From positions 16,474-80,473 of the forward strand of contig JAEZHY010000101.1 in the NCBI GenBank assembly GCA_023416335.1: a stretch of 64,000 bases of DNA, written 5' to 3'. This DNA is from Pseudomonadota bacterium (GTDB taxonomy: Bacteria > Desulfobacterota > Syntrophobacteria > Syntrophobacterales > Syntrophobacteraceae). The translations under genes and the position numbers were made by a program. Positions 4,311 to 16,061 of the stretch are shown here, one piece after another. The notes beneath the pieces were generated by a model. That model was not told where the DNA came from. It made no database searches and saw only the letters and a list, made by a program, of their open reading frames with translations. Within the stretch, counting starts at the first letter, position 1. Each line of letters begins with the position of its first letter.

Positions 4311-5507
4311 ATGAAACATCAGGTATCAAAACTCGTTCAAAACGTTCGGCCTTCAGTTATCCGAGAGATGTCTCTCCGGGCTGAAGGCCTGGATAATGTT
4401 ATTTCGCTTGGAATCGGCGAGCCCGATTTCGATACGGAGCATTCCATCTGCAACGGGGCCTTTCGGGACGTTCTTTGCGGAGCGACCCACTATACGCCCT
4501 CGCAGGGGGACACGGAGCTTCTCCAGGCGCTGTGCGACACCGTCAATAAGCAGCACGGCCTCGATATCACCATCAGGAATGTCGTCGTTACCCTTGGCGG
4601 AATGGGTGCTCTCACGGCCTATTTCCGAACAATGCTCGACCCGGGTGATGTCGTGCTGATCCCGGAACCCTATTTCGGGTCGTACCGTCCTCATGTCGAA
4701 TGGGCAAACGGCCGGGTGCGCGAGGTGCCCACGAACTTCGAGGACGGCTTCATTGTCCGGCCCGAAGCAATTGAGGAGGCGATCACCTCGGAATCTAAGG
4801 TGCTCCTGCTGAATTCTCCCAACAATCCGACCGGCGCGGTCATTCCAGGTAAAACTCTGGATGCGATAGCCGAGGTGGTGAAGCGCCGCGACCTGCTCGT
4901 CGTGAGCGACGAAGTCTACGACCGCCTTGTTTTCGACGGGGCCCGGCATGAATCGATCGTAACGCGTCCCGGCATGCGGGAACGGACCGTCGTGATCAAC
5001 TCTTTTTCCAAGAGTTTTGCCATGACCGGGTGGCGCATCGGTTATGCTTACGGGCCGGAGTGGCTCATCGAGCCCATGACCAAGGTCGTCAGCCATTGCA
5101 CTTCATGTACTCCTTCGGTGTCGCAGCGGGCGGCCCTTGCGGCCCTTCGCATGGACGAGGGCAGTGTCCGGAAAATGGCGGCAGAGTTCGAAGCCCGGCG
5201 CGATCTGCTTTATGAAGGTGTACGCAGGCTCCCCGGAGTCCGGGTCAACAAGCCCTCGGGGGCCTTCTATATGTTTGTGGATGTTTCCCGGATTACGGAC
5301 GATCCCTACCGCTTTGCACTCGACCTCCTGGAGGAAGAGCGGGTCGTGGTGGTCCCCGGTTTTTGCTTCGGTCCTTCCGGCAAGGAATGCATCCGGCTGG
5401 CCTACACCGTGAACGGAGATATGATCGCCGAAGCCCTGGAGCGCATGGAACGCTTTATCCGCAAACGAATGGAAGCTCCCGGCGCGGTGGCGGCTGCAAG
5501 GAATTGA
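4311..5507 (+). CDS. PLP-dependent aminotransferase, class I/II
   Basis: This is a fold-type I aminotransferase that exchanges an amino group between an amino acid and a 2-oxo acid using pyridoxal phosphate. The 398-residue product shows LGIGEPDFDTE near residue 33, HYTPSQGDTELLQAL for substrate positioning, NSPNNPTGAV near 170, SDEVYDRLVFDG near 200 (the Asp/Tyr pair that holds the cofactor), and INSFSKSFAMTGWRIGY near 232 with the Schiff-base lysine. The ATG at 4311 is chosen since the family starts at VRPSVIREMS; the longer frame overlaps dctM. It is 41 bases downstream of dctM and probably cotranscribed. Aspartate- or alanine-type specificity is possible; the exact substrate is not readable. 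Confidence 0.92.
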   Translation: MKHQVSKLVQNVRPSVIREMSLRAEGLDNVISLGIGEPDFDTEHSICNGAFRDVLCGATHYTPSQGDTELLQALCDTVNKQHGLDITIRNVVVTLGGMGALTAYFRTMLDPGDVVLIPEPYFGSYRPHVEWANGRVREVPTNFEDGFIVRPEAIEEAITSESKVLLLNSPNNPTGAVIPGKTLDAIAEVVKRRDLLVVSDEVYDRLVFDGARHESIVTRPGMRERTVVINSFSKSFAMTGWRIGYAYGPEWLIEPMTKVVSHCTSCTPSVSQRAALAALRMDEGSVRKMAAEFEARRDLLYEGVRRLPGVRVNKPSGAFYMFVDVSRITDDPYRFALDLLEEERVVVVPGFCFGPSGKECIRLAYTVNGDMIAEALERMERFIRKRMEAPGAVAAARN

Positions 5508-5529
5508 AGGAAAACAATTATATTCTAAG

Positions 5530-5752
5530 TTGCGTTCAAAACGATACCTAGAACCAAAAAGAGCGGGGGAATGATTCCCCCGCACCCCCCAGGATTTTCG
5601 GCCTTGCGTGCAAGAGCACGCGAGGCCGAGCGCTCGGCGCTGTCGGCGTCTGGCCGAAGGCCGCCGCCGTAGCGCAACGCTGAGCCGCGAAGCGGCGAGG
5701 GGGTGTGGGGGGGGGCGCCCCCCACGTTTTTATAGTAATTAGCTGAACGCAA
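5530..5752. mobile_element. GC-rich MITE-like element, copy 1
   Basis: The element begins TTGCGTTCA (5530-5538) and ends with the exact inverse TGAACGCAA (5744-5752), giving 9-base terminal inverted repeats around 223 bases. It has no coding capacity. Inside are perfect hairpins: GCGGGGGAA-tga-TTCCCCCGC near 5563-5583 and the palindrome GCCGAGCGCTCGGC. A CCCCCACACCCCCTCGCCGC-type block recurs in the copy at 59442-59745, whose ends match. It separates the aminotransferase gene from the FAD oxidase gene and ends 4 bases before the possible GTG start of the latter, so it may have replaced the native leader. Confidence 0.65.
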
Positions 5753-5756
5753 ATAC

Positions 5757-7178
5757 GTGTCAAAGGTACGGAACTCAGTGGCGATATCGAAAAGCTTTAT
5801 CAGGGAAGTCCGAGCCATAACCGGACCGAAGGGCTGCCTGGACGCTCCGGAAGACCTGCGCTGCTATTCCTACGATCTTTTTGCGCGGGGAATTCCGGAA
5901 CTTGTCGTGCTGCCCGAGACGACGGAACAGACGGCAAGCGTTTTAAAGCTCGCAAACGAGGCGGGCATTCCGGTGACGCCCAGGGGGGCGGGATCTTCCC
6001 TTACTGGCGGATCGGTCCCGATCCGAGGCGGTATTTCGCTCTGCCTTGCCCGGATGAACAAGATCCTGGAAATTTCCCCTCTGGACCGGCTGGCGCGGGT
6101 GCAGCCCGGAGTAGTAACGGCCGACTTTCAAAAGACCGTTCTCAGGCGGGGGCTCTTCTATCCGCCCGATCCTGCTTCCTCGCCCTTCTGCACCATCGGA
6201 GGAAACGCGGCCACCAACGCGGGGGGGCCGAGCGGGGTAAAATACGGCGTAACGCGCGACTACCTGCTGGGGCTCACGATGGCTGCCCCGTCGGGAGATG
6301 TCCTCGTTACGGGCGGCCGTTCGATGAAGAGCGTCACGGGCTACGATTTCACGCATTTCATTTGCGGCAGCGAAGGGATGCTCGGCGTCATCTCCGAGGT
6401 AACGGTCAAGCTTCTGCCCAAACCGGAAGCGGTACGGACACTCCTTGCCTTCTATCCGGACGTCGATTCCGCGGTGGAAAGCGTGGCCCTGATCATTTCC
6501 TCCGGAATCATTCCCAAGACCCTGGAATTGATGGACCAGAACTTCCTGAGCGCGGTGGACGCCCTGTATCACTTCGATTTTCCCGAAGGCTCGGGGGCAG
6601 GGTTGCTCATCGAGGTTGACGGTCCGGCCCTGCTCGTGGACTCACAGGCCGGCAGCATCCTTGACCTGTGTGCTCGCGGGCGGGCCAAAACCGTGCAAAG
6701 CGCGCAAAACGAAGAAGAACGGGACAAACTCTGGCGCGCGCGCCGGTCCGGCACAGCGGCGCTCGTGCGGCAGTCGAAGTTCCTGGTCACCATGGACATC
6801 GCCATCCCCATTTCCGGCATCGCCCAGGCTGTGCGGGAGATCCAGGACCTCGGCAGGAAATTCTCCATCCACGTCGTTATCATCGGGCATGCAGGCGACG
6901 GGAACCTTCACCCCATGTTCATCTACGATCCGGACGACCCGAAGCAGGCGGAGGCCTTCCTGAATGCTGAAAAAGGCCTTTACGAAACCATGGTCCGGCT
7001 GCGCGGCACGCTTTCGGGCGAGCACGGCATCGGCATCGAGAAGGCGCAGTACCTCAGCCTGGAAAAGTCGGCTTTCGAACTCGATCTCAGCCGCCGGATG
7101 AAAGAAGTTTTCGATCCCAAACGAATCATGAATCCCGGGAAGTGCGAATGGACGCAGCCAAAGCATCATCCGCACTGA
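5757..7178 (+). CDS. glcD: FAD-linked oxidase, GlcD family (2-hydroxyacid dehydrogenase subunit)
   Basis: This is the flavoprotein subunit of a glycolate- or lactate-type dehydrogenase. It oxidises a 2-hydroxy acid to the 2-oxo acid and passes electrons to the Fe-S protein encoded next. The 473-residue frame has the PCMH-type FAD-binding domain in its N-terminal half (PVTPRGAGSSLTGGSVPIRGG near residue 78, IGGNAATNAGGPSGVKYG near 150). The GlcD C-terminal domain follows, with HAGDGNLHP near 380 and LSGEHGIGIEKAQYL near 420, the conserved histidine motifs. The start is uncertain: GTG at 5757 or GTG at 5778, neither with a clear ribosome binding site, possibly because the repeat element ends just upstream. 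The substrate is inferred only as a 2-hydroxy acid. Confidence 0.9.
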   Translation: MSKVRNSVAISKSFIREVRAITGPKGCLDAPEDLRCYSYDLFARGIPELVVLPETTEQTASVLKLANEAGIPVTPRGAGSSLTGGSVPIRGGISLCLARMNKILEISPLDRLARVQPGVVTADFQKTVLRRGLFYPPDPASSPFCTIGGNAATNAGGPSGVKYGVTRDYLLGLTMAAPSGDVLVTGGRSMKSVTGYDFTHFICGSEGMLGVISEVTVKLLPKPEAVRTLLAFYPDVDSAVESVALIISSGIIPKTLELMDQNFLSAVDALYHFDFPEGSGAGLLIEVDGPALLVDSQAGSILDLCARGRAKTVQSAQNEEERDKLWRARRSGTAALVRQSKFLVTMDIAIPISGIAQAVREIQDLGRKFSIHVVIIGHAGDGNLHPMFIYDPDDPKQAEAFLNAEKGLYETMVRLRGTLSGEHGIGIEKAQYLSLEKSAFELDLSRRMKEVFDPKRIMNPGKCEWTQPKHHPH

Positions 7179-8431
7179 GGGTGCAGGATATAATCCAGTG
7201 TGAGCACTGCGGGCGCTGCCTGGAGGTCTGTCCGACCTACCAGGTATCGCGTACGGAAACGCTGAGCGCCCGCGGACGGTGGGACCTCATCAGCGGGGCC
7301 GTCTCCGGCGAACTGACGCCCGGCCCCCGCTATTTCGAATCCCTTTCCCAGTGCCTGCACTGCATGGCCTGTTCCGCCATATGCCCCAAGGGAGTCAACG
7401 TGGAGCATATGGTACGAGGGGCTAAGGCGGATTTTCCTCAGGACGGCTTCCAGGCCTTCGTGCGGAAGGCGGTTTTCAAGGGCGTGCTCATGAACCGCCC
7501 AATGATGAAAACCTTCATCCGGGCAATTACGCTTGCGAGGCGATTCTTTCCCGCCGGATCTGACCGCGTATCCCGGCACCTGCCCCTCTTTCTTACCGAC
7601 CTGCTGAACGGTTTCGCCATCCCCCACATGGAAAGCCGGTCTCTCTTCCGGAAATTTCCGGCGAAAGTCCCTGCGGCAAAGGACGTTCCATTTCAGGGGA
7701 CCGTCGCCTACTTTTCCGGCTGCTTCAACTCGCTGGTCGATCCCGTTCCGGCGGAAGACACGATTCACGTGCTTGCCGAAAACGGCTTCGACATCCTCAT
7801 CCCGCCCGACCAGACCTGCTGCGGCGCGCCGCTCTTCTTCTCCGGCGACCGGGAAATGACGCTCGGAATGATACGGAAAAACACTCAGGTGCTGGAGGGC
7901 GCGGACAGGGTGCTCACCTCATGCGCAACCTGCGGGAGCATGCTGAGAAACGAATATCCGGCCCTGTCGGAAGACTATCCCGCGCTGTCCCGAAAAGCCA
8001 GGGCATTGGCTTCGCGAACCGTGGATTTCGCGGAACTGCTCAAGGGGATCGACATTCGGAAAGGGCGCATTCCCATCAATCGGCGGGTGACGGTTCACGA
8101 CCCGTGCGATCTGGTGCGGGGGCAGGGGATCTCAAACGAAATAAGAGAGGTCCTGTCCGCTATTCCGGGCCTGGAGATTGTGGAGATGGAACACTCTGCC
8201 CGCTGCTGCGGCGGAGGAGGCACCTTCAGCCTGAGCCACCCGGAACTGGCAGAAGCGATCGGGGAAAAGAAAATCCAAAGCATCCTCGATACCGGAGCGT
8301 CTATGGTGGTAACTGGCTGCCCCGGATGCATTCTGCAAATCGGACGGATCCTGGCGCGGGAAGGATATGCGATTCCGGTTGTTCATCCAGCGGAGTTGCT
8401 CGCAGCTTCTTATGGGTATCGCAGGCTTTAA
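7148..8431 (+). CDS. glcF: Fe-S oxidoreductase, GlcF/CCG-domain family
   Basis: This is the electron-transfer partner of the GlcD-like flavoprotein. The 427-residue product starts with two ferredoxin-type motifs, CEHCGRCLEVCP near residue 18 and CLHCMACSAICPKG near 68, for two [4Fe-4S] clusters. It ends with two CCG (cysteine-rich) domains marked by QTCCGAPLFFSGD near 220 and ARCCGGGGTFS near 355, expected to bind further clusters or quinone-linked redox groups. The ATG at 7148 has GGGAAG upstream and overlaps the end of glcD by 31 bases, so the two are translationally linked. The last 78 bases recur at 14516-14593 with the same reading frame, which marks the left edge of the inserted island. 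Confidence 0.92.
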   Translation: MDAAKASSALRVQDIIQCEHCGRCLEVCPTYQVSRTETLSARGRWDLISGAVSGELTPGPRYFESLSQCLHCMACSAICPKGVNVEHMVRGAKADFPQDGFQAFVRKAVFKGVLMNRPMMKTFIRAITLARRFFPAGSDRVSRHLPLFLTDLLNGFAIPHMESRSLFRKFPAKVPAAKDVPFQGTVAYFSGCFNSLVDPVPAEDTIHVLAENGFDILIPPDQTCCGAPLFFSGDREMTLGMIRKNTQVLEGADRVLTSCATCGSMLRNEYPALSEDYPALSRKARALASRTVDFAELLKGIDIRKGRIPINRRVTVHDPCDLVRGQGISNEIREVLSAIPGLEIVEMEHSARCCGGGGTFSLSHPELAEAIGEKKIQSILDTGASMVVTGCPGCILQIGRILAREGYAIPVVHPAELLAASYGYRRL

Positions 8432-8436
8432 GAACC
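8359..8436 (+). repeat. Left flanking direct repeat (glcF 3' end)
   Basis: Bases 8359-8436 align without gaps to 14516-14593, with 10 mismatches over 78 positions. This copy is the functional 3' end of glcF and includes its TAA stop. The pair brackets the AT-richer island with the methyltransferase/GHKL operon. Confidence 0.85.
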
Positions 8437-8460
8437 TCGTGGTTTGCCGACGCGCTTTTA

Positions 8461-8483
8461 TGCTGATTTCGATGAAATCAGCA
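8461..8483. terminator. Perfect hairpin downstream of glcF
   Basis: TGCTGATTTC and GAAATCAGCA form a 10-base-pair stem with a 3-base loop, 30 bases after the glcF stop. No U-tract follows it on the plus strand. It may protect or end the glcF mRNA; otherwise it is an island-end structure. Confidence 0.4.
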
Positions 8484-8694
8484 ACGAAGATCCCGTGAGG
8501 AATCAAAAGATTTTCCATGCGAAACAACGAGAAAGAATGGCGGCAGAGTTTTTGGGCCTTGGCCAGCGAAGGTTTGCGAGAAAGATGGAACTTTGTTAGC
8601 TCACTGTAAAATCGGTGCTAACAAATGAGCTTTTCGTGCCGCCCTCTACTGGTGTGAAAATCAGTCTGTGATTCTCTATTTGCTATCAAGCAGA

Positions 8695-9390
8695 TCAGGC
8701 CCTCTCAAACCATTGCGATCCAGCCATTGAGTTGTGAAAAAATAATTGACCTTGTTCTTTGGAAATTGCAAGGCTGGGGAATGCTTTCCGTATTTCAGCT
8801 GTCCTGGCAAGCAAGTCTCTCAACTTAAGGACGCCGAGATGGCAAGCGACTAGAGAACAGAGGACGGATGGCAAGGTCATATTCGGAATGGGTAGTCTCA
8901 ACGCATTCAGGACGCGCTTATCCAAAAAACTCCAATCAATCGTGTAATTCTTTGGCAAGGGCGCAGGTTCTAAGTCCGGCTTTCCCTTCGAGAAGACGTG
9001 CGCATGAAGGAGTGGATGATCAATATCGCCCACCTCAGGATGGAAATCAAATCGCAGATTTTCAAAAGCTTCGATGACACTTTTCTGTTTGTCACGCTTG
9101 AAATAGGCGAGATACACTGATGATCGTGTGTGAAGAAAATCATTCTGCAAATATTGAAAATTTGCATCCACCAAAATATCAACATGCTGGTACTGGTCCG
9201 TACTTTTGCTGACTGGCCATTCTGAAAGAAAAATCGGCTTTTTAAGACGTGCCCTTCGATATCCATTTCCTAGGGTTTCATCTGCGAATTCGAGCTTATA
9301 GGGGTAAAAGCCGTATGCCCGCGCGATAAGGCCAAAACTCTCGTAGAATTCTCTGTACGCCTGAATAATTGATTTATTACGGTTCTTCAT
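8695..9390 (-). CDS. Unknown protein, last gene of the island operon
   Basis: I do not recognise this 231-residue protein. It is soluble and rich in aromatic and charged residues, with no signal peptide or membrane segment. Notable stretches are HVDILVDANFQYLQNDFLHTR near residue 57-77, and FHPEVGDIDHPLLHAHVFSKG near 105, whose clustered histidines and acids might bind metal. The C-terminal half is helical (LCSLVACHLGVLKLRDLLART). The ATG at 9390 is chosen because it follows the stop codon of the upstream gene by one base (TGA-G-ATG); the longer frame would overlap that gene. As the fourth gene of a tightly packed operon it is probably a working part of the system, perhaps an effector or adaptor. 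That role is inferred from position only. Confidence 0.75.
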   Translation of the reverse strand: MKNRNKSIIQAYREFYESFGLIARAYGFYPYKLEFADETLGNGYRRARLKKPIFLSEWPVSKSTDQYQHVDILVDANFQYLQNDFLHTRSSVYLAYFKRDKQKSVIEAFENLRFDFHPEVGDIDHPLLHAHVFSKGKPDLEPAPLPKNYTIDWSFLDKRVLNALRLPIPNMTLPSVLCSLVACHLGVLKLRDLLARTAEIRKAFPSLAISKEQGQLFFHNSMAGSQWFERA

Positions 9391-9391
9391 C

Positions 9392-10474
9392 TCAGTACAG
9401 CCCCACCCAAGGTGCCAATTCATTAAACACATCCAGGCGGATGCGCGATAGATCAGCCCCAGCTGGAAACCAGCTTATCTCCCCCTTAGAATTACTATCG
9501 CTCACCGGTTGCCGAGTTACCATACAGTAGTAACCCGCTCGTTCACCCGATTGAGGATCATCACATTTTTGGACTGGAAAACCTTTCGCGTTGGCAAGTG
9601 CAAGTCCGTCTTTACACCCGTTCTCATTGAATAGTTCTTCGAGCTTATGTCGCCACCACCATTTATGGAGATCAGAAAAAGGCCCATCGTAACGAGCCTC
9701 TTTGAATATACCTTGAATTTCGGGATTCGAAAAATCTGAGGGGTCAATGTTGAGGAAGCTGGCCGCAGGTATCTCAGAGACGAGGATGCCAGGAAACCGA
9801 AGTAGGGAGGTGTATAACCAATTACCCAAAATCCGAGGCATCCTCTTCGTCAATTCTTTGGTGGTTTCTTCGGCTTTATCTCGGCGAAAGGGCATAATTT
9901 CTTCAAGGAAACCTTGCTCACCCGAACCGTAAAGGGCAACTCGGTCTTCTATCCCAGGATGTCCTAGAATGGATGCAAGAGCAGCTGCTGGGGTAGCCCG
10001 ACTTTCTTTCGGTATTTTGGGATAGATTTCCTCAATTTTAGCAAAGGCCCGAAATATGCAAGCACATTCGTTAGCAAGACCTTCTTCTGAGCTAAATTCA
10101 AGCAAAATGCGTTTCTTTTCCCACGGAGCCAGACTCTTCAGCAGTTCCTCACCGGCCGGTTCTCCTTCCCCTCTGGCGTATAAACATAATGGAAAACCAA
10201 GTGTATCAGCCACCGCAGCAACCATCGTTCCAGATAGGCCGATGAAACGTTCTCCTAAATCTGAAAGATCTTTATCGCAGACGATTAGAGCACCATCGGG
10301 TGCTTGCTCTCTTAAAATCTCCTCCAGTTGAGCTTCATACGTTTTCTTCTTTTCTTGTTCTCCTCGGCCATCAATACTTGAAATTTCGACCTCATCCTTC
10401 AATAATCTTTTCAATCGCCTTACAAGATCATTTCTGCGATCATTCTTGTCCTCAAAGACAATAATCTTATTCAT
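9392..10474 (-). CDS. Receiver-like domain protein with a C-terminal domain of unknown function
   Basis: The product (360 residues) begins like a response-regulator receiver. MNKIIVFEDKNDRR gives the first strand with the acidic pair E8/D9, and GALIVCDKDLSD near residues 61-72 gives the third strand with D67 as candidate phospho-acceptor. The remaining 230 residues are not a known DNA-binding output. They include KWWWRHKLEELFNENG, YYCMVTRQPVS and a C-terminal FNELAPWVGLY. The start at 10474 has GGAG 9 bases upstream; an in-frame ATG at 10489, one base after the previous stop, is also possible. It lies directly behind a GHKL kinase-like gene, which suggests a phosphorelay or phosphorylation-controlled switch. 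The receiver fold is a moderate-confidence reading; the output function is unknown. Confidence 0.75.
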   Translation of the reverse strand: MNKIIVFEDKNDRRNDLVRRLKRLLKDEVEISSIDGRGEQEKKKTYEAQLEEILREQAPDGALIVCDKDLSDLGERFIGLSGTMVAAVADTLGFPLCLYARGEGEPAGEELLKSLAPWEKKRILLEFSSEEGLANECACIFRAFAKIEEIYPKIPKESRATPAAALASILGHPGIEDRVALYGSGEQGFLEEIMPFRRDKAEETTKELTKRMPRILGNWLYTSLLRFPGILVSEIPAASFLNIDPSDFSNPEIQGIFKEARYDGPFSDLHKWWWRHKLEELFNENGCKDGLALANAKGFPVQKCDDPQSGERAGYYCMVTRQPVSDSNSKGEISWFPAGADLSRIRLDVFNELAPWVGLY

Positions 10475-10490
10475 GCTAGGGATCTCCATC

Positions 10491-12701
10491 TTATCGAGGG
10501 AACTGAACCCGAAAACAGGTATTATATCCAGGGGGGGGATCAACGAGTTCAATGCGTCCCCCTGCGCCAGAAAGCAATTGCTTCACCAATGTCAAGCCTA
10601 ACCCCATGCCGGAGCCGAGAGGATTCGAGCTTCCTCCGGATGTGGTTGTAAATAGGGGGTCCCAGATTCTTTGCCTCAGATGAGGTGGAATACCAATCCC
10701 AGTATCGGCTACTTCCAGAACATGTTGCTTTGGGACATTCCAGGCCTTAATTGCAATTCGCCGTTGAGGAGCCGAACCCTGCCCCCCAAAAATAGCCTTA
10801 AGTGCATTTGTGTATAGGTTAAGTAATACTCCACTGTACAGCGCTACGGGCAAAGGGGGAGTCATAAGATCATTATCTATACTACATTCGACATTAACCT
10901 TCCTGTCTTCAGTAAAATAGGAAAATCTCTCAAGGACGCGCCTCACTTGGCTTTTTACATTCAACGCTGCCTTAGTAACTTGAGGAGCCTGAACGTTTGA
11001 TATGTAGGTCGATGAAAACTGGATTTGGCCAGCAATTTCATCACGTGTTTTTTGAACGCGAGTGAGCATCGTAGAAATTGAAGGTGATATAGCTTTAGAC
11101 CTTATCTCCTTAATTACCTGATCGAGATCATGAATTATTCTTTTCATTTCGTGGGTCAAAAATCCGGCCAATACACCCAGGAGTGCTATAGTTTCCATTC
11201 TTGAAACAGCAGTTTTTTGATAGTCTTGGACATCTTTGAGTTCTGTTATGAGTTCTTGAAAGCGCCCAATAACCTGCTGTTTATCACTTTCTGATAAAGT
11301 TGGGATTCTAGAAACATAGTCTATAGCAGCTCTATAGTCTTCCCGCATCTCTTTGACTAACCGCTGGGCTTTTTCCTCCTCAATTCTGCGTTGTTCAGCG
11401 TGATCTGCGTATGCAAGCATCTCAAGGCCAGCGCGAACAATCTGAAAGAGTGCGCGGAATGCACCATTATCTACAAAGCCTTCTCGGTCCATAGAGGGAG
11501 TGAGATCTTTGGGCCGTGCAGAATCTGTATCTTGAGAGGACTCAACGAAAACAGCGCCTACAAGTTGATGGAAATTGGGGAGATATAGCATGGGGTTTAG
11601 CTTTGGATGAGCAATCGCTTCTGCAGACATGGGGTAAAGATCGTTCATAAACTGAACGCGCCATGTTCGACGATTATGTCCACTATCCAACCCAAGATTC
11701 AGCCAGTCATCATCCCTAAATCCAAACGGGCGGATTCGAAATCCATGATCGACTATGCCGATACCTCCATTTTCTCTAAGCCATCCATATATCTTACGTC
11801 CGTCCAAACCTATATTTTGAAACATCCCAGCCCGCCGAGGACAATATCGAACATCTGCAAAAAGCCCCCTTGAGATCTGGCTCGGGTATTCGATGTCTCG
11901 GCTCAGCAGAATTCTGCCATCTTTATGCCGAATGCGGTACTTTACCTTTCCATCCTTATGCTCAATGGTTAGCTGGGAATATGCATTATCCAATACTGCA
12001 GAGGCAATATCTTGCTCACCTTCTTCGTCAGTTTTTGGCAGAATTACTGTAAATCCTGGGTCCTGTGCAGAGCCTGCTTGGCGGCTAAACCAGCCCCTCT
12101 CAAGCCCAGAGTATGGGTTAATTATGGATAGGAGCTCAGTCCTTTGTTCTTTACTGAATTGAATATCTTCAGGATTGCGAAGTTTAGAAATCTTTAATCG
12201 AGTACCGGTAGGTCGGTTTCCTTTGACGGGCCAGACCTCATACTGGATTTTCACGGTATGTAGCTGGCTTGCTGCATCAATTTTTTCCCATCGAAACTTG
12301 GTTTTTAGAAAGGTTTTTCTCCGAGATCCGACGTTTGCCACTGTTTCCAGGTCCAGGACTCTCCCAAGAAACCTTACAGCGAAACGCCCGATTCCTTTTG
12401 AGCCTGTGACTTTTCGCTGGTATTTCCGTGAAAGGCGCTGCCTTTGCTTATCGGGAGTAGCGATGCGCATCCAGTTCTGGAGAAACTCATTTTCTGTCAT
12501 CCCATGACCGTTATCGATTATCTCGATGCAGCTTCCGTCAAAGCTCACACGACATTCGTGCGCGTCAGCATCATATGCGTTCTTGATAAGTTCTAATAAA
12601 GCAACATCGGCCTTCGCGACCAAACGCTCGCCAAGTTCCTGCAGAAGGCGCCCCTGTGTTTGAAAATTGGCCGCGGCTACTTTTCTTCCTGATTCAGGCA
12701 T
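10491..12701 (-). CDS. Double GHKL protein: Hsp90/MORC-like ATPase fused to a histidine-kinase module
   Basis: This 736-residue protein carries two GHKL ATP-binding modules. The first is Hsp90/MutL/MORC-like: N-box LLELIKNAYDADA (residues 35-47, N41), IIDNGHGM (61-68), and GSKGIGRFA (100-108). A middle region of about 300 residues follows, then a helical coiled-coil-like stretch (430-500). The second is kinase-like: an H-box LTHEMKRIIHDL with H517, N-box LLNLYTNALKAI (626-637), ADTGIGIP (665-672) and GSGMGLGLTLVKQLL (697-710). It has no signal peptide or membrane segment, so it is a cytoplasmic sensor. Its ATG overlaps the methyltransferase gene by 8 bases. The receiver-like protein next door is the obvious partner. 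The Hsp90-type front end as a sensor is inference. Confidence 0.85.
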   Translation of the reverse strand: MPESGRKVAAANFQTQGRLLQELGERLVAKADVALLELIKNAYDADAHECRVSFDGSCIEIIDNGHGMTENEFLQNWMRIATPDKQRQRLSRKYQRKVTGSKGIGRFAVRFLGRVLDLETVANVGSRRKTFLKTKFRWEKIDAASQLHTVKIQYEVWPVKGNRPTGTRLKISKLRNPEDIQFSKEQRTELLSIINPYSGLERGWFSRQAGSAQDPGFTVILPKTDEEGEQDIASAVLDNAYSQLTIEHKDGKVKYRIRHKDGRILLSRDIEYPSQISRGLFADVRYCPRRAGMFQNIGLDGRKIYGWLRENGGIGIVDHGFRIRPFGFRDDDWLNLGLDSGHNRRTWRVQFMNDLYPMSAEAIAHPKLNPMLYLPNFHQLVGAVFVESSQDTDSARPKDLTPSMDREGFVDNGAFRALFQIVRAGLEMLAYADHAEQRRIEEEKAQRLVKEMREDYRAAIDYVSRIPTLSESDKQQVIGRFQELITELKDVQDYQKTAVSRMETIALLGVLAGFLTHEMKRIIHDLDQVIKEIRSKAISPSISTMLTRVQKTRDEIAGQIQFSSTYISNVQAPQVTKAALNVKSQVRRVLERFSYFTEDRKVNVECSIDNDLMTPPLPVALYSGVLLNLYTNALKAIFGGQGSAPQRRIAIKAWNVPKQHVLEVADTGIGIPPHLRQRIWDPLFTTTSGGSSNPLGSGMGLGLTLVKQLLSGAGGRIELVDPPPGYNTCFRVQFPR

Positions 12702-14010
12702 GGCGTCCTTCCCATTGCGAAAAGCTGTTGAGTACGGCGTTTAATTGGCGGATTTCAATCTTCTTGAGTTCCTTGGCATGAGGAACAACTCGATCTTCGA
12801 AATCTATTCCAGTCAAATAGGTGCGAATACGTGACCAGTCGAGTTCTCTCTCAGAATAAATGCCGCACACTGAACCTACAGCATGGGCCATGATTTCGTT
12901 TATGACTACTTTCGGTCCGAATGACGTAAACCCAGTACTGACGAGAAGTTTTGGGGCGGTGAAAAGTCGAAATCGATACCAGGGGTCCTGCGAATGGCAC
13001 GTCCAGGTGTCACGACGAGTCGGGGGGATGCTGTCTAGATACGTTCGTAAACGACTCGAAATAGTTTCAGCGAAGGATTTTATTAGCCAGCATCGTGCTC
13101 CTGCTGATACAAAGCATTCTTGAAACATAGAGTAATTTAAGCATGTGACATCGCGGGGCAGTTCACGCATCGACGTGACGCAGGGAAGCACATCTTCAAG
13201 TTCAAGTCCGGCATGAATCCGCTCACCTTCAGTCAGTGTAAAGACCTTTTGAGTACCTGGACTCATACCTCTCATGGCCCACAGTGAACCTCGCGGTTCA
13301 TAGCTCAAGAGTGGCCTTTTCGAGCCCGTCATATTTTTCGGCTGCAAGATATTGCCTTTGCAATCAACTTGAAAGAAGCACCAATTTGAGTCGCGATTTT
13401 TCTTATCAATAATCGAAATCGATGCAGTAGTGAGCACACCATCGAAGATTGGTTCGACAAATTTATAAACATCTACGTGCCACTTGTTCCTATTTATATA
13501 CTCCCTTAATGGACTGGCGGATGGACGTGAAACCCACTCATAAGGAACGACTACTGATACGAGCCCTTCCATTTCAGTCTTGAGAAGCCCAAGAAAGAGG
13601 AAATATACATAAAGATTGCACTTTCGATTGATTGCTACTCCAGTTTGTTTCTCAATTCTGCGTGCAACCGAATCTCGCCATCCCTCTTCCAAATCATGGT
13701 GGCGCACATAAGGTGGGTTCCCGACGTAACACGAGAATCCATTTTCATCATGTTCAAATGCACACATATAACGAATTTTAGCGTTGGCTGGCAGGTTGAG
13801 GGTGGGATATCGAGCAGTGTCGATCTCGACTCCTTCATATGAATCATAGAGACCGCTGATTGCGAACCGTCCATCTCCAGCACCAAGATCCAGAACTCGA
13901 GAGAGATGAGGCCGATAGCGATGCGTGATCCTCCAGAATAGCTGGATGACCTCTGAGGGCGTTCTGACCTGTGAGCGCGCAAGCTCGTATGCTGCCTTGT
14001 GCCTCGCCAT
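12694..14010 (-). CDS. DNA adenine N6-methyltransferase, first gene of the island operon
   Basis: This is an S-adenosylmethionine-dependent DNA methyltransferase of 438 residues. Motif I is VLDLGAGDGRFA (39-50), and the catalytic motif IV is GNPPYVRHHDL (97-107), the NPPY form typical of adenine N6 enzymes. The acidic residue of motif II is in YEGVEIDTARY near 59-68. The C-terminal 250 residues would be the target-recognition part; LLSYEPRGSLWAMRGMSPGT and KLLVSTGFTSFGPKVV resemble Eco57I/TaqI-like C-terminal domains. It has no fused nuclease. ATG 14010 has AGG about 8 bases upstream. It heads a leftward operon with the GHKL protein, the receiver-like protein and an unknown protein, which suggests self/non-self marking in a defence system. 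That role is inference. Confidence 0.88.
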   Translation of the reverse strand: MARHKAAYELARSQVRTPSEVIQLFWRITHRYRPHLSRVLDLGAGDGRFAISGLYDSYEGVEIDTARYPTLNLPANAKIRYMCAFEHDENGFSCYVGNPPYVRHHDLEEGWRDSVARRIEKQTGVAINRKCNLYVYFLFLGLLKTEMEGLVSVVVPYEWVSRPSASPLREYINRNKWHVDVYKFVEPIFDGVLTTASISIIDKKNRDSNWCFFQVDCKGNILQPKNMTGSKRPLLSYEPRGSLWAMRGMSPGTQKVFTLTEGERIHAGLELEDVLPCVTSMRELPRDVTCLNYSMFQECFVSAGARCWLIKSFAETISSRLRTYLDSIPPTRRDTWTCHSQDPWYRFRLFTAPKLLVSTGFTSFGPKVVINEIMAHAVGSVCGIYSERELDWSRIRTYLTGIDFEDRVVPHAKELKKIEIRQLNAVLNSFSQWEGRHA

Positions 14011-14515
14011 TCTTTTTACCTAGAGTCGCATCTCAGTATTCCATATTAATGGGAAATACATAGCACAAAATCACGAATACCTTGATTTTTCAAAATATTG
14101 ACAGTAGCCCATCCGCTGTTAGCGGTCAAGCGGATTGTCCACTGGATATTGAATCTAGTTGAGGTCTCGCCTGGGGTCGGACCAGCCGATTGCCTTAAAA
14201 AGAAAGACTAATCGGAATCATGCTATCCTAAGTACTTGAAAATACATTGGCTATACTTCTAAAACCCCCAAATATTACCGTTCCGGGTTCATTCCTTTTT
14301 GTTGTTGCCATGGGCAGACCAGGGCGACCCACCTTAGTATCGTTCAGGAACGAAGTGCATGGCCGAAAGAGAGCCGGTGCGTGGTTTGACTTGACGATTC
14401 CCCCCTTTCAGTTGCTGGTGACGGCATTCAGCCGCTATTATTTACACGAAAGCGACTGTATTTCAAGTTGCAGGTTTCACTTGAAACCTCTTACGGATAG
14501 GGAGGAGCCTTGCTA
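14011..14515. other. AT-rich region upstream of the island operon, no gene supported
   Basis: About 500 bases with low coding signal. The leftward operon promoter should be in the first 150 bases, which are AT-rich (for example TTAATATGG and TTTTGAAAAATC on the minus strand), but no clear -35/-10 pair was found. A rightward 89-codon frame at 14247-14516 has no recognisable domain and is not called. Confidence 0.5.
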
Positions 14516-14593
14516 GGAAGGATACGCGATTCCGGTTGCTCATCCGGCCGAGTTGCTCTCTGCTTCTTACGGGTATGGCTGGCTTTGAGAACC
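14516..14593 (+). repeat. Right flanking direct repeat: displaced glcF 3' end
   Basis: The sequence can be read in the glcF frame as EGYAIPVAHPAELLSASYGY and then GWL with a TGA stop at the position of the glcF stop. Seven of the ten differences from 8359-8436 leave the stop and most residues intact, and several are third-position changes. This is a coding remnant of a diverged glcF copy, not a random match. It marks the right edge of the inserted island. Confidence 0.8.
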
Positions 14594-14975
14594 CTTCTGG
14601 ATTTACCGGCGTGGTTTCATCCAATTATCACGCGAAGCCCGCGAAGGGCACGAAGAAGACTGGATTCCTGAGGATGGAGAATCCTTGGCTCTTAACGCTT
14701 TACCCCAACAGCCCTATAACATGCGATTTATTTAAGTAGGAGAAAGTGGTTGCTGCTGTTGGGGGGGAGAAATGAAATTCATGTCTATTTGCATAGCTGG
14801 ACAAAAAACAAAAGACAAAGTCAAATCCAGCTCGAAGTAGGAGCACGCAGTAAAATGATCTGAATCGCTGAATCGATCAGAGGGAAATGGAGATAACTCG
14901 GACACCCGAATTTCGTACGCTGTTTCGGATCGGGTTTGTTATATTCTTGCGGCTGAAGAGAGGAGGTGACTTGAA
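14594..14975. other. Intergenic, no gene seen
   Basis: Between the glcF remnant and the broken nuclease gene. It contains CACGAAGAAGAC-type repeat fragments, a G-tract (GGGGGGG near 14760) and AT-rich DNA. No coding frame is convincing. Confidence 0.5.
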
Positions 14976-15581
14976 TTGCCCATATACGGCTATGGCGAAG
15001 ACGCACTTACCTTCCATGCTTTGAGTACGGGTCTTTCTGATTTACTGACTCAGCTGCGGGATAACAGCGACCCTGCCTAAGCGATCTGCTTTTTCCGACC
15101 CAGCTTTGGCCGGCGCAGTTCAGCACCGGGTAGGTCCCTGCGTTCCGAGTTCGGTGAGTTCGATGCGATCATGGGGACGTCGCGGGCTGTGTACCTCATC
15201 GAGGCAAAATGGTCCGGCTCGAGTGAGTTGAATAGAGAGAAACTGGAGTTGCGCCCCGAGCAAAAAAGAAGGCACGAAGCATTCCGGGCCTATTTGAATG
15301 AGTGGCGCCGTGAATATTCGAGCTGTTGGGCGGAATTCGTGTCGAGAATGAAGCCGGTACTCAAACTTCAGAATATGAGCCCACCATCGGCTGGCACGAA
15401 GCTGGCGAGGAACCTGGAATATGTGCTCCGAGCGCTCAATGGGTGTGGTTCCGAGGTCAAAGACGTCCTGCTGTTCTGCCGGTTGGACGAATCAACTCCA
15501 GTCCCAACTGTTTGCGACAATTTCACCGTGATTATACACTCTTGCCCTCCAGTAGAGGGCGGCAGCTTCATTTCGTTTTGA
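14976..15581 (+). pseudogene. PD-(D/E)xK nuclease-like gene with an in-frame stop
   Basis: A single frame starts at TTG 14976 behind a strong GAGGAGGTGA and reads MPIYGYGEDALTFHALSTGL and on to a TAA at 15078. It resumes in the same frame for about 167 codons. The second part has the order FGEFDAI then VYLIEAKW, that is, an Asp followed about 12 residues later by Glu-x-Lys, the PD-(D/E)xK nuclease core. It continues LRPEQKRRHEAFRAYLNEWR, a segment that fits the family I remember as small nuclease-like proteins. The frame is intact on both sides of the stop, so one nonsense change explains the break. An internal ATG at 15171 follows the Asp and could not give an active core. It may have been the cutting partner of the nearby methyltransferase island; that is inference. 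Confidence 0.7.
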
Positions 15582-15626: not shown

Positions 15627-16061
15627 CTATTCAGGCAAAAAGTTATAGTCCAATGTTTGGGAAAAAGAATAGGGCCACGTAGAGGGAAAGGTACTTTCGG
15701 GGAGCCCGGTTTCCTTAGCCGCGATAATAATAGCTTTGCTGTACGCCTTCTCAAGCTTTTGCTCAATCTCGCTGCCCAGGCTGGGGCTGTCTTCGAGCAA
15801 ATCCTGCAGGCTTGCCCGTTGCTCTTTGATTGAATACATCCAACTGTTGGAACGCATTCCCGGCTGAAACTGCCATTTCAAGAGGTGTGCAATCAAAACG
15901 GCCAAACGGTTCATGAACGCCCGCTTTTCGCTCTTCCCCATGCTCTCGAGTTCCTCTGCAATGTTTTGCAAATCGACATCCGACAGTTCCCCCAAGCGAA
16001 TGAGCCGGGCATTTTGCATTGCCCACGAATAGAAATCTTTCTCGTAAAGTTCAGCATCCAT
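15627..16061 (-). CDS. DUF29 family protein
   Basis: A 144-residue soluble helical protein of the DUF29 family, which is common in cyanobacteria and deltaproteobacteria and has no established function. The signature is clear: LYEKDFYSWAMQNARLIR near residue 4, LSDVDLQNIAEELESMGKSE near 24, then HLLKWQFQPGMRSNSW near 58. The ATG at 16061 is chosen because AGGAAGG stands about 8 bases upstream and the family begins here; the longer open frame upstream is not family-like. DUF29 genes are often found near mobile or toxin-antitoxin-like regions, which fits the accessory surroundings. No role is proposed. Confidence 0.9.
   Translation of the reverse strand: MDAELYEKDFYSWAMQNARLIRLGELSDVDLQNIAEELESMGKSEKRAFMNRLAVLIAHLLKWQFQPGMRSNSWMYSIKEQRASLQDLLEDSPSLGSEIEQKLEKAYSKAIIIAAKETGLPESTFPSTWPYSFSQTLDYNFLPE

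Follow-up and report, generated by a model that had tools for sequence, protein, structure and literature searches.

Four minus-strand genes, designated M, K, R and U and read in that order from 14010 down to 8695 among the ORFs of the 64-kb window (the whole stretch of DNA that was analysed, 64,000 nucleotides), form a mobile module that is most likely, in a reading which we hold about as readily as we doubt it, an anti-phage system with a phosphorelay in place of a restriction nuclease. It is the context that suggests an anti-phage function: the gene set travels across distant bacteria, prophages and a plasmid, and U has a probable, remote tie to an anti-phage protein, which together suggest an immunity based on phosphate signalling. 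All four ORFs described in the first-pass annotation are present on the minus strand (Table 1), and the overlapping or nearly touching arrangement reported there was re-measured as claimed, the M/K, K/R and R/U junctions being -8, +16 and +1 bases. The length of R is counted from a conserved ATG, the mechanical ORF beginning 26 codons upstream inside K, and that of U from the ATG at 9390, its mechanical ORF being 14 codons longer.

Table 1. Coordinates of the cassette, its domains and its flanking repeats in the window
Feature	Position	Strand	Evidence
M, DNA methyltransferase of Eco57I type (N6-adenine predicted), 438 aa	12694..14010	-	Pfam PF07669 9.1e-13; PADLOC MTase_II 1.9e-16
K, 736 aa, with two GHKL domains: paraMORC-type/HATPase_c_3 ATPase at the N-terminus, helical linker, DHp helix (His517-Glu518), histidine-kinase ATPase at the C-terminus	10491..12701	-	
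K N-terminal GHKL domain, residues 32-145	12267..12608	-	PF13589 7.8e-21
K His517 codon, predicted phospho-acceptor, THE box	11151..11153	-	invariant in 10/10 loci
K C-terminal histidine-kinase ATPase domain, residues 625-735	10497..10829	-	PF02518 8.2e-24
R, receiver and output protein, 360 aa	9392..10474	-	no Pfam match; AlphaFold2 model, mean pLDDT 92
R receiver (REC) domain, residues 1-153, (beta/alpha)5 fold, acidic D9 and candidate phospho-acceptor D67	10016..10474	-	predicted model
R output half, residues about 200-360	9395..9877	-	part of output half free-standing in split relative L024
U, 231 aa, mostly beta with C-terminal helices; probable remote DUF2290 relative	8695..9390	-	
glcF-like gene 3' end, abutting the cassette	8359..8431	+	stop at 8431
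Second, diverged copy of the glcF-like gene 3' end, on the other flank of the cassette; insertion scar	14516..14590	+	

The cassette had also been said to be richer in AT than its neighbours and to lie in an insertion, and both statements hold. Its GC content over 8695-14010 is 46.3%, whereas it never falls below 50.4% in 481 overlapping windows of that size taken from the rest of the 64 kb. The stretch at 14516-14620 repeats the end of the glcF-like gene (8359-8461) with 85 of 105 columns identical (81%), and the two copies encode the last residues of that gene with 19 of 23 residues identical; this duplicated gene end on both flanks is the trace of an insertion, and the sequence suggests that the inserted element possibly brought its own copy of the 3' end. 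A neighbouring broken nuclease, which had been counted in favour of defence, adds little. It is probably the frame at 14950-15581 on the plus strand, in which an internal stop and a stretch resembling a PD-(D/E)xK nuclease can be read, and the Pfam scan of its open part gave no match. A DUF29 protein (PF01724, 8e-50) is encoded near the cassette at 15630-16061 on the minus strand.

Searches with HMMs for the conserved neighbourhood recovered the cassette elsewhere, so that the refutation proposed at the outset, that the four genes are never found together, fails. Seeded with R, the scan of genome contigs gave four relatives (Candidatus Neomarinimicrobiota, Phycisphaerae, Deltaproteobacteria and Alphaproteobacteria), the viral scan one contig, and the plasmid scan a single relative among 72,556 records, on a plasmid of Paraburkholderia largidicola (L006); all four genes are held by 4/4, 1/1 and 1/1 of these, and in the six loci (L001-L006) M, K, R and U follow one another in that order on one strand. 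Five of the six relatives from the M-seeded viral scan carry K, R and U according to the HMMs built in this analysis; among these five, L015 is the already known viral contig and L018 and L019 are near-copies. The sixth, L020, was set aside as a different methylase (27% identity) without K, R and U. With the window counted, the independent loci number ten, order and strand are identical in all of them, and the junctions range from -23 to +28 bases, the L017 junction being computed from an internal codon of U whose true ATG lies three bases upstream. Nine further loci that repeat this gene set and its order place the association beyond chance, and their occurrence together in distant organisms bears out the view that the four genes form a unit.

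At the level of proteins, R falls into at least 99 clusters, the window's included, among the best 7995 candidates of the protein search, and U into 49 clusters in a protein search with alignment. The longest contig matches in size that of an R cluster for 29 of the 49 U clusters (again with the window's), and two further U clusters have longest contigs sized as those of L002 and L004. Genomes rarely hold the cassette: the R-seeded search, self hits counted, gave 2 of 294 in one phylum and 1 of 297 in another. Among the ten loci identity falls as low as 35% (M, K), 22% (R) and 16% (U). Comparison of the pairwise identity matrices gave the best correlation for K and R (r 0.91; none of 2000 label permutations as high) and the worst for M and U (r 0.36, a value equalled or exceeded in 70 of 2000 permutations); from sequence, the K-R value is what would be expected of kinase-receiver partners, and common descent of the whole cassette contributes to it.

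One relative has the set in pieces. In G314 (locus L024) the R-seeded genome search matched residues 212-286 of R only (E 6.4e-11), and the region 5409-9410 encodes a K-like double-GHKL protein, a free receiver-like protein of 170 aa, a free output protein and then a U-like protein; an N6 methylase is convergent to these genes, and a SIR2_2 protein lies upstream. The free output protein is homologous to part of the output half of R (E 1.6e-14 against the R profile built here) and bears a CxxC...HxxC pattern. The U-like protein was missed by the U HMM and is found by hhalign against the U profile (p 4.9e-6), while the 170-aa protein, called receiver-like on reading its sequence, had no match in the Pfam scan. 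Since receiver and output are separate proteins there, R behaves as a fusion of two modules, and since the set is complete despite the split, it persists where the sequences have diverged far.

Proximity to defence and mobile genes was another point that could be followed in the relatives, and such neighbours recur (Hma, SIR2, HerA, integrases, portal, terminase) in library scans of the flanks that covered selected ORFs. HmaB and HmaC lie just upstream of the L001 cassette, HmaC ending 169 bases before M, and none of the three flanking ORFs scanned there is a phage or plasmid gene. In L002, as read from ORF starts, a transposase-like ORF was recognised and no defence gene. L003 has an upstream terminase-like ORF slightly below the Pfam cut-off, and L004 a weak HerA-like match. 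In L005 (4216-14480) the cassette stands between phage portal/capsid genes and terminase gpA in the orientation opposite to theirs, an arrangement which indicates that it is an insertion into the late gene cluster. The L006 plasmid carries a tyrosine recombinase and a toxin-antitoxin pair; L016 and L017 carry phage integrases, in L018 one gene separates U from a glucosaminidase lysin, and on the L019 contig SIR2 and HerA homologues lie upstream at a distance of about 4.6 kb. Just downstream of the L017 cassette, 14042-15328 encodes a candidate defence protein with a partial match to PADLOC PDC-S60 (8.5e-30).

The assignment of M as a predicted adenine methyltransferase stands: it is over the Pfam cut-off for Eco57I (PF07669, 9.1e-13), and the NPPY motif (motif IV), because of which M is predicted to modify adenine, is invariant in all ten loci. 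That K is a double-GHKL ATPase/kinase was likewise confirmed, HATPase_c_3 being found at residues 32-145 and HATPase_c at 625-735. Its invariant residues in the ten loci comprise the N-terminal GHKL motifs, the THE box His517-Glu518, Asn628, Asn632, D-x-G-x-G-I-P at 666-672 and GSGMGLGL at 696-703, and the H, N, G1 and F/G2 boxes of two-component kinases are all present; these motifs leave both ATPase engines and the phospho-acceptor box intact by sequence. The N-terminus (residues 19-177) resembles the BbrUII/HgiDII restriction-enzyme model (1.6e-19), at 69.9 bits far below the cut-off of 550, and the PADLOC REase_II matches of K are confined to the GHKL domain.

For the R protein of the window Pfam (E<=1) and NCBIfam gave no match and PADLOC none that convinces, and among 72 R proteins none matches Response_reg or Response_reg_2 at E<=0.1. 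Its receiver fold is read from the AlphaFold2 model, in which residues 1-153 form a predicted (beta/alpha)5 with an acidic pocket and D67 at the end of strand 3. Asp9 and Asp67 are invariant in 10/10 loci, and neither the canonical receiver Thr/Ser after strand 4 nor the Lys after strand 5 is invariant in the 10 loci or the 72 sequences, so that phosphorylation of R is not assured. The fold comparison barely covered the output half (residues 160-360), where residues 201-274 have a predicted helix-strand-helix-helix order and, on the model, could as readily be a winged-helix-like module as part of the non-DNA-binding output proposed at the outset.

The U protein of the window is likewise devoid of a Pfam match at E<=1, of an NCBIfam match and of a convincing PADLOC match, and a search for a credible Pfam, PDB or Foldseek match found none. 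Tyr96, Asp115, His125-Pro126-x-x-His129, Pro167 and His184 are invariant in the ten loci, and the core can be written [HR][FY]D[FY]-x(n)-HPxxH-...-R-[IL]-P, of which [HR][FY]D[FY]...HPxxH...R-I is common to U and DUF2290. DUF2290 proteins over the cut-off were found in 6 of 200 and 2 of 246 genomes, eight proteins in all, with 1 of 247 below the cut-off in a third phylum; seven of them (one near-copy omitted) were compared as a profile with 43 U sequences. The hhalign score was 33.7 (p 2.9e-4, probability 40%), as against a maximum of 22.6 and a median of 13.4 for 200 column shuffles of the DUF2290 alignment, 18.1 for the reversed alignment and 12.3 for R against the same alignment. In an exhaustive hmmsearch with the U profile three DUF2290 proteins rank first with weak E-values (0.009 to 0.047), and the other five fell among unrelated ORFs. 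Given a score above all shuffles but no match of the 51 U proteins to PF10053 (Pfam DUF2290) at E<=0.1, the relation is one of remote homology and not of DUF2290 membership; the profiles indicate that U is probably a remote relative of DUF2290 and a family of its own. A helicase-like ORF adjoins the DUF2290 gene in all eight loci over the cut-off (here, as for the Vsr-like genes below, the name is a reading of the sequence). At L032 (1396-3470) a very divergent DUF2290 protein stands beside such an ORF; its sequence features are intermediate between those of classical DUF2290 proteins and of the L024 U-like protein, and it may be a bridge between the two families.

The impression that this exact set is not among the named anti-phage systems is supported, no PADLOC 2023 model fitting R or U credibly, and no description of the M-K-R-U set was recognised in searches of a collection of open-access papers, which covered few subscription papers and preprints. 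Its logic is not unprecedented, since HEF_HK kinases already pair with receiver-like proteins near methylases. The nearest published kind is the pair of HEF_HK (PF19191) and Response_reg_2 (PF19192), described in 2021 (Bellieny-Rabelo et al., PMC8011034); according to that paper the two are linked in 91.6% of 644 regions, often near cytosine methylases, and HEF_HK is proposed to derive from paraMORCs, while the words "phage" and "defense" are absent from the main text. Like the cassette, these systems have a kinase with an N-terminal HATPase_c_3 and a C-terminal HATPase_c (7/7 K proteins, from the window and L001-L006), an adjacent receiver-like gene, an upstream DNA methylase and R-M surroundings. 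The kinase halves of K and HEF_HK align with an hhalign probability of 98.7% over 211 columns, part of which generic kinases would give. PF19191 matches four of the seven K proteins at E<=1 and one over the cut-off (L003, 25.3 vs 24.1 bits), with no match listed for K of the window, L001 and L005. The Response_reg_2 partner, in contrast, is not in the cassette: R against eight such proteins scored 20.5 in hhalign (p 0.14), the Response_reg_2 model itself giving matches in 8 of 299 genomes as a control, and R has 360 aa whereas these proteins have about 570-600. K (about 740 aa) is also shorter than the HEF_HK kinase (about 1000 aa), and the cassette methylase is of Eco57I type in 10/10 loci whereas a C5-cytosine methylase is the commonest, non-obligatory neighbour of HEF_HK systems, which do not have U and where a Vsr-like gene may follow instead. 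In eight HEF_HK loci that we fetched, the kinase adjoins the Response_reg_2 gene in all eight, at least seven have a C5-methylase-like gene nearby (motif or sequence-start reading), and a Vsr-like gene follows the receiver-like gene in two. At L038 (3237-3668), where a C5 methylase may or may not be encoded, the Vsr-like ORF lies upstream of the pair rather than downstream. K is distantly related to the HEF_HK group of paraMORC kinases, and the cassette would work as that kind does without being a clean member of it.

Other known systems share single features with the cassette. The pair of helicase and DUF2290 inhibits phage T7 according to the P4-satellite study (Rousset et al. 2022, PMC9122126), and U shares its core with DUF2290 with a profile score above 200/200 shuffles; no helicase is among M, K, R and U, whereas that system has one, and no UvrD-like helicase was recognised beside U, which has R on one side in 10/10 loci and was surveyed on the other from ORF starts. 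According to Iyer et al. 2008 (PMC2292703), the paraMORC proteins are typical of R-M operons and there combine, like the cassette, an N-terminal GHKL ATPase with a methylase in one operon; in the cassette, by contrast, the GHKL domain is fused to a complete histidine-kinase core and has a receiver as partner, and neither a helicase nor a recognised nuclease is present. With type II R-M systems the cassette has the methyltransferase in common, and a search of R and U for nuclease families found none. The likeness to Detocs lies in a two-component-like logic in a defence setting. Detocs ends in a nucleoside phosphorylase and is not known to have a methylase; unlike that phosphorylase effector, R and U of the window have no Pfam family at all.

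It is tempting to hypothesize how the four proteins would work together. M would methylate its target adenine and thereby mark host DNA as self, while K would be a soluble, cytoplasmic dimeric sensor, its dimerisation and its sensed ligand both being part of the conjecture. The N-terminal paraMORC-type ATPase of K may act as a clamp on DNA or protein that closes on unmarked or abnormal DNA, and ATP-driven closure would release or drive the C-terminal kinase, so that His517 would be phosphorylated and would pass its phosphate to Asp67 of R, the direction of flow from K to R being presumed. Phosphorylated R would then switch on U through its output half, and U, the likeliest effector or effector partner, would block phage replication or the cell.

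The main rivals to this reading are an unrecognised nuclease within U or the R output half, and a transcriptional output. If the former, the cassette would be an unusual R-M system without phosphate signalling. K would then loop DNA as a paraMORC ATPase, its kinase-like half regulating no more than ATP use or dimerisation, R would serve as a scaffold, and DNA left unmethylated by M would be cut by U or the R output. The place of paraMORC proteins in R-M operons (PMC2292703), the resemblance of the K N-terminus to BbrUII/HgiDII, below cut-off as it is, the Vsr-like gene read at the position of U in two of eight HEF_HK loci, and the invariant His and Asp residues of U would all fit; but no nuclease family matches R or U, and the kinase boxes and receiver aspartates are kept in 10/10 loci where a pure scaffold would not need them, and we consider such a system unlikely.

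Kinase-receiver pairs usually control transcription. The four genes could form a two-component system that regulates gene expression, as an epigenetic switch or in the service of a prophage, R controlling M and neighbouring or host genes by a DNA-binding output, as the winged-helix-compatible order of R 201-274 and the location of the operons in prophages and a plasmid would allow. Against this, R is without a match to any HTH family, M and U are encoded together in 10/10 loci, L024 retains a free output protein together with a U-like protein, and several neighbours are defence genes, which makes a regulator quite improbable in our view. Orphan methylases are common on plasmids and phages, and the presence of the cassette on a plasmid and on phage-like contigs would also suit a module for maintenance of the mobile element or anti-restriction, M shielding the element from host restriction and K, R and U tuning M or conjugative or prophage functions. 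This we regard as very unlikely: the L001 cassette sits beside Hma genes with no phage or plasmid gene among the three flanking ORFs scanned, the 4.0-kb K-R-U apparatus is large for shielding one element, and the remote relative of U belongs to an anti-T7 system.

We are thus left to prefer phosphate-signalling immunity, and advance its fuller form tentatively, being more inclined to doubt than to trust it: an undescribed immunity in which methylase marking is read by a clamp-ATPase-kinase, and phosphotransfer to a receiver activates a DUF2290-type effector. The sets of HEF_HK, Response_reg_2 and cytosine methylase would then be a parallel branch of this logic, and the kinase and receiver described beside methylases in 2021 would become a testable defence hypothesis. 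The finding offers two unnamed protein families, R and U, with their invariant residues and, through U, a remote link to an anti-T7 system already in the literature. Should the phosphorelay reading be true, bacteria would apply classical two-component chemistry inside the cell to the methylation status of DNA.
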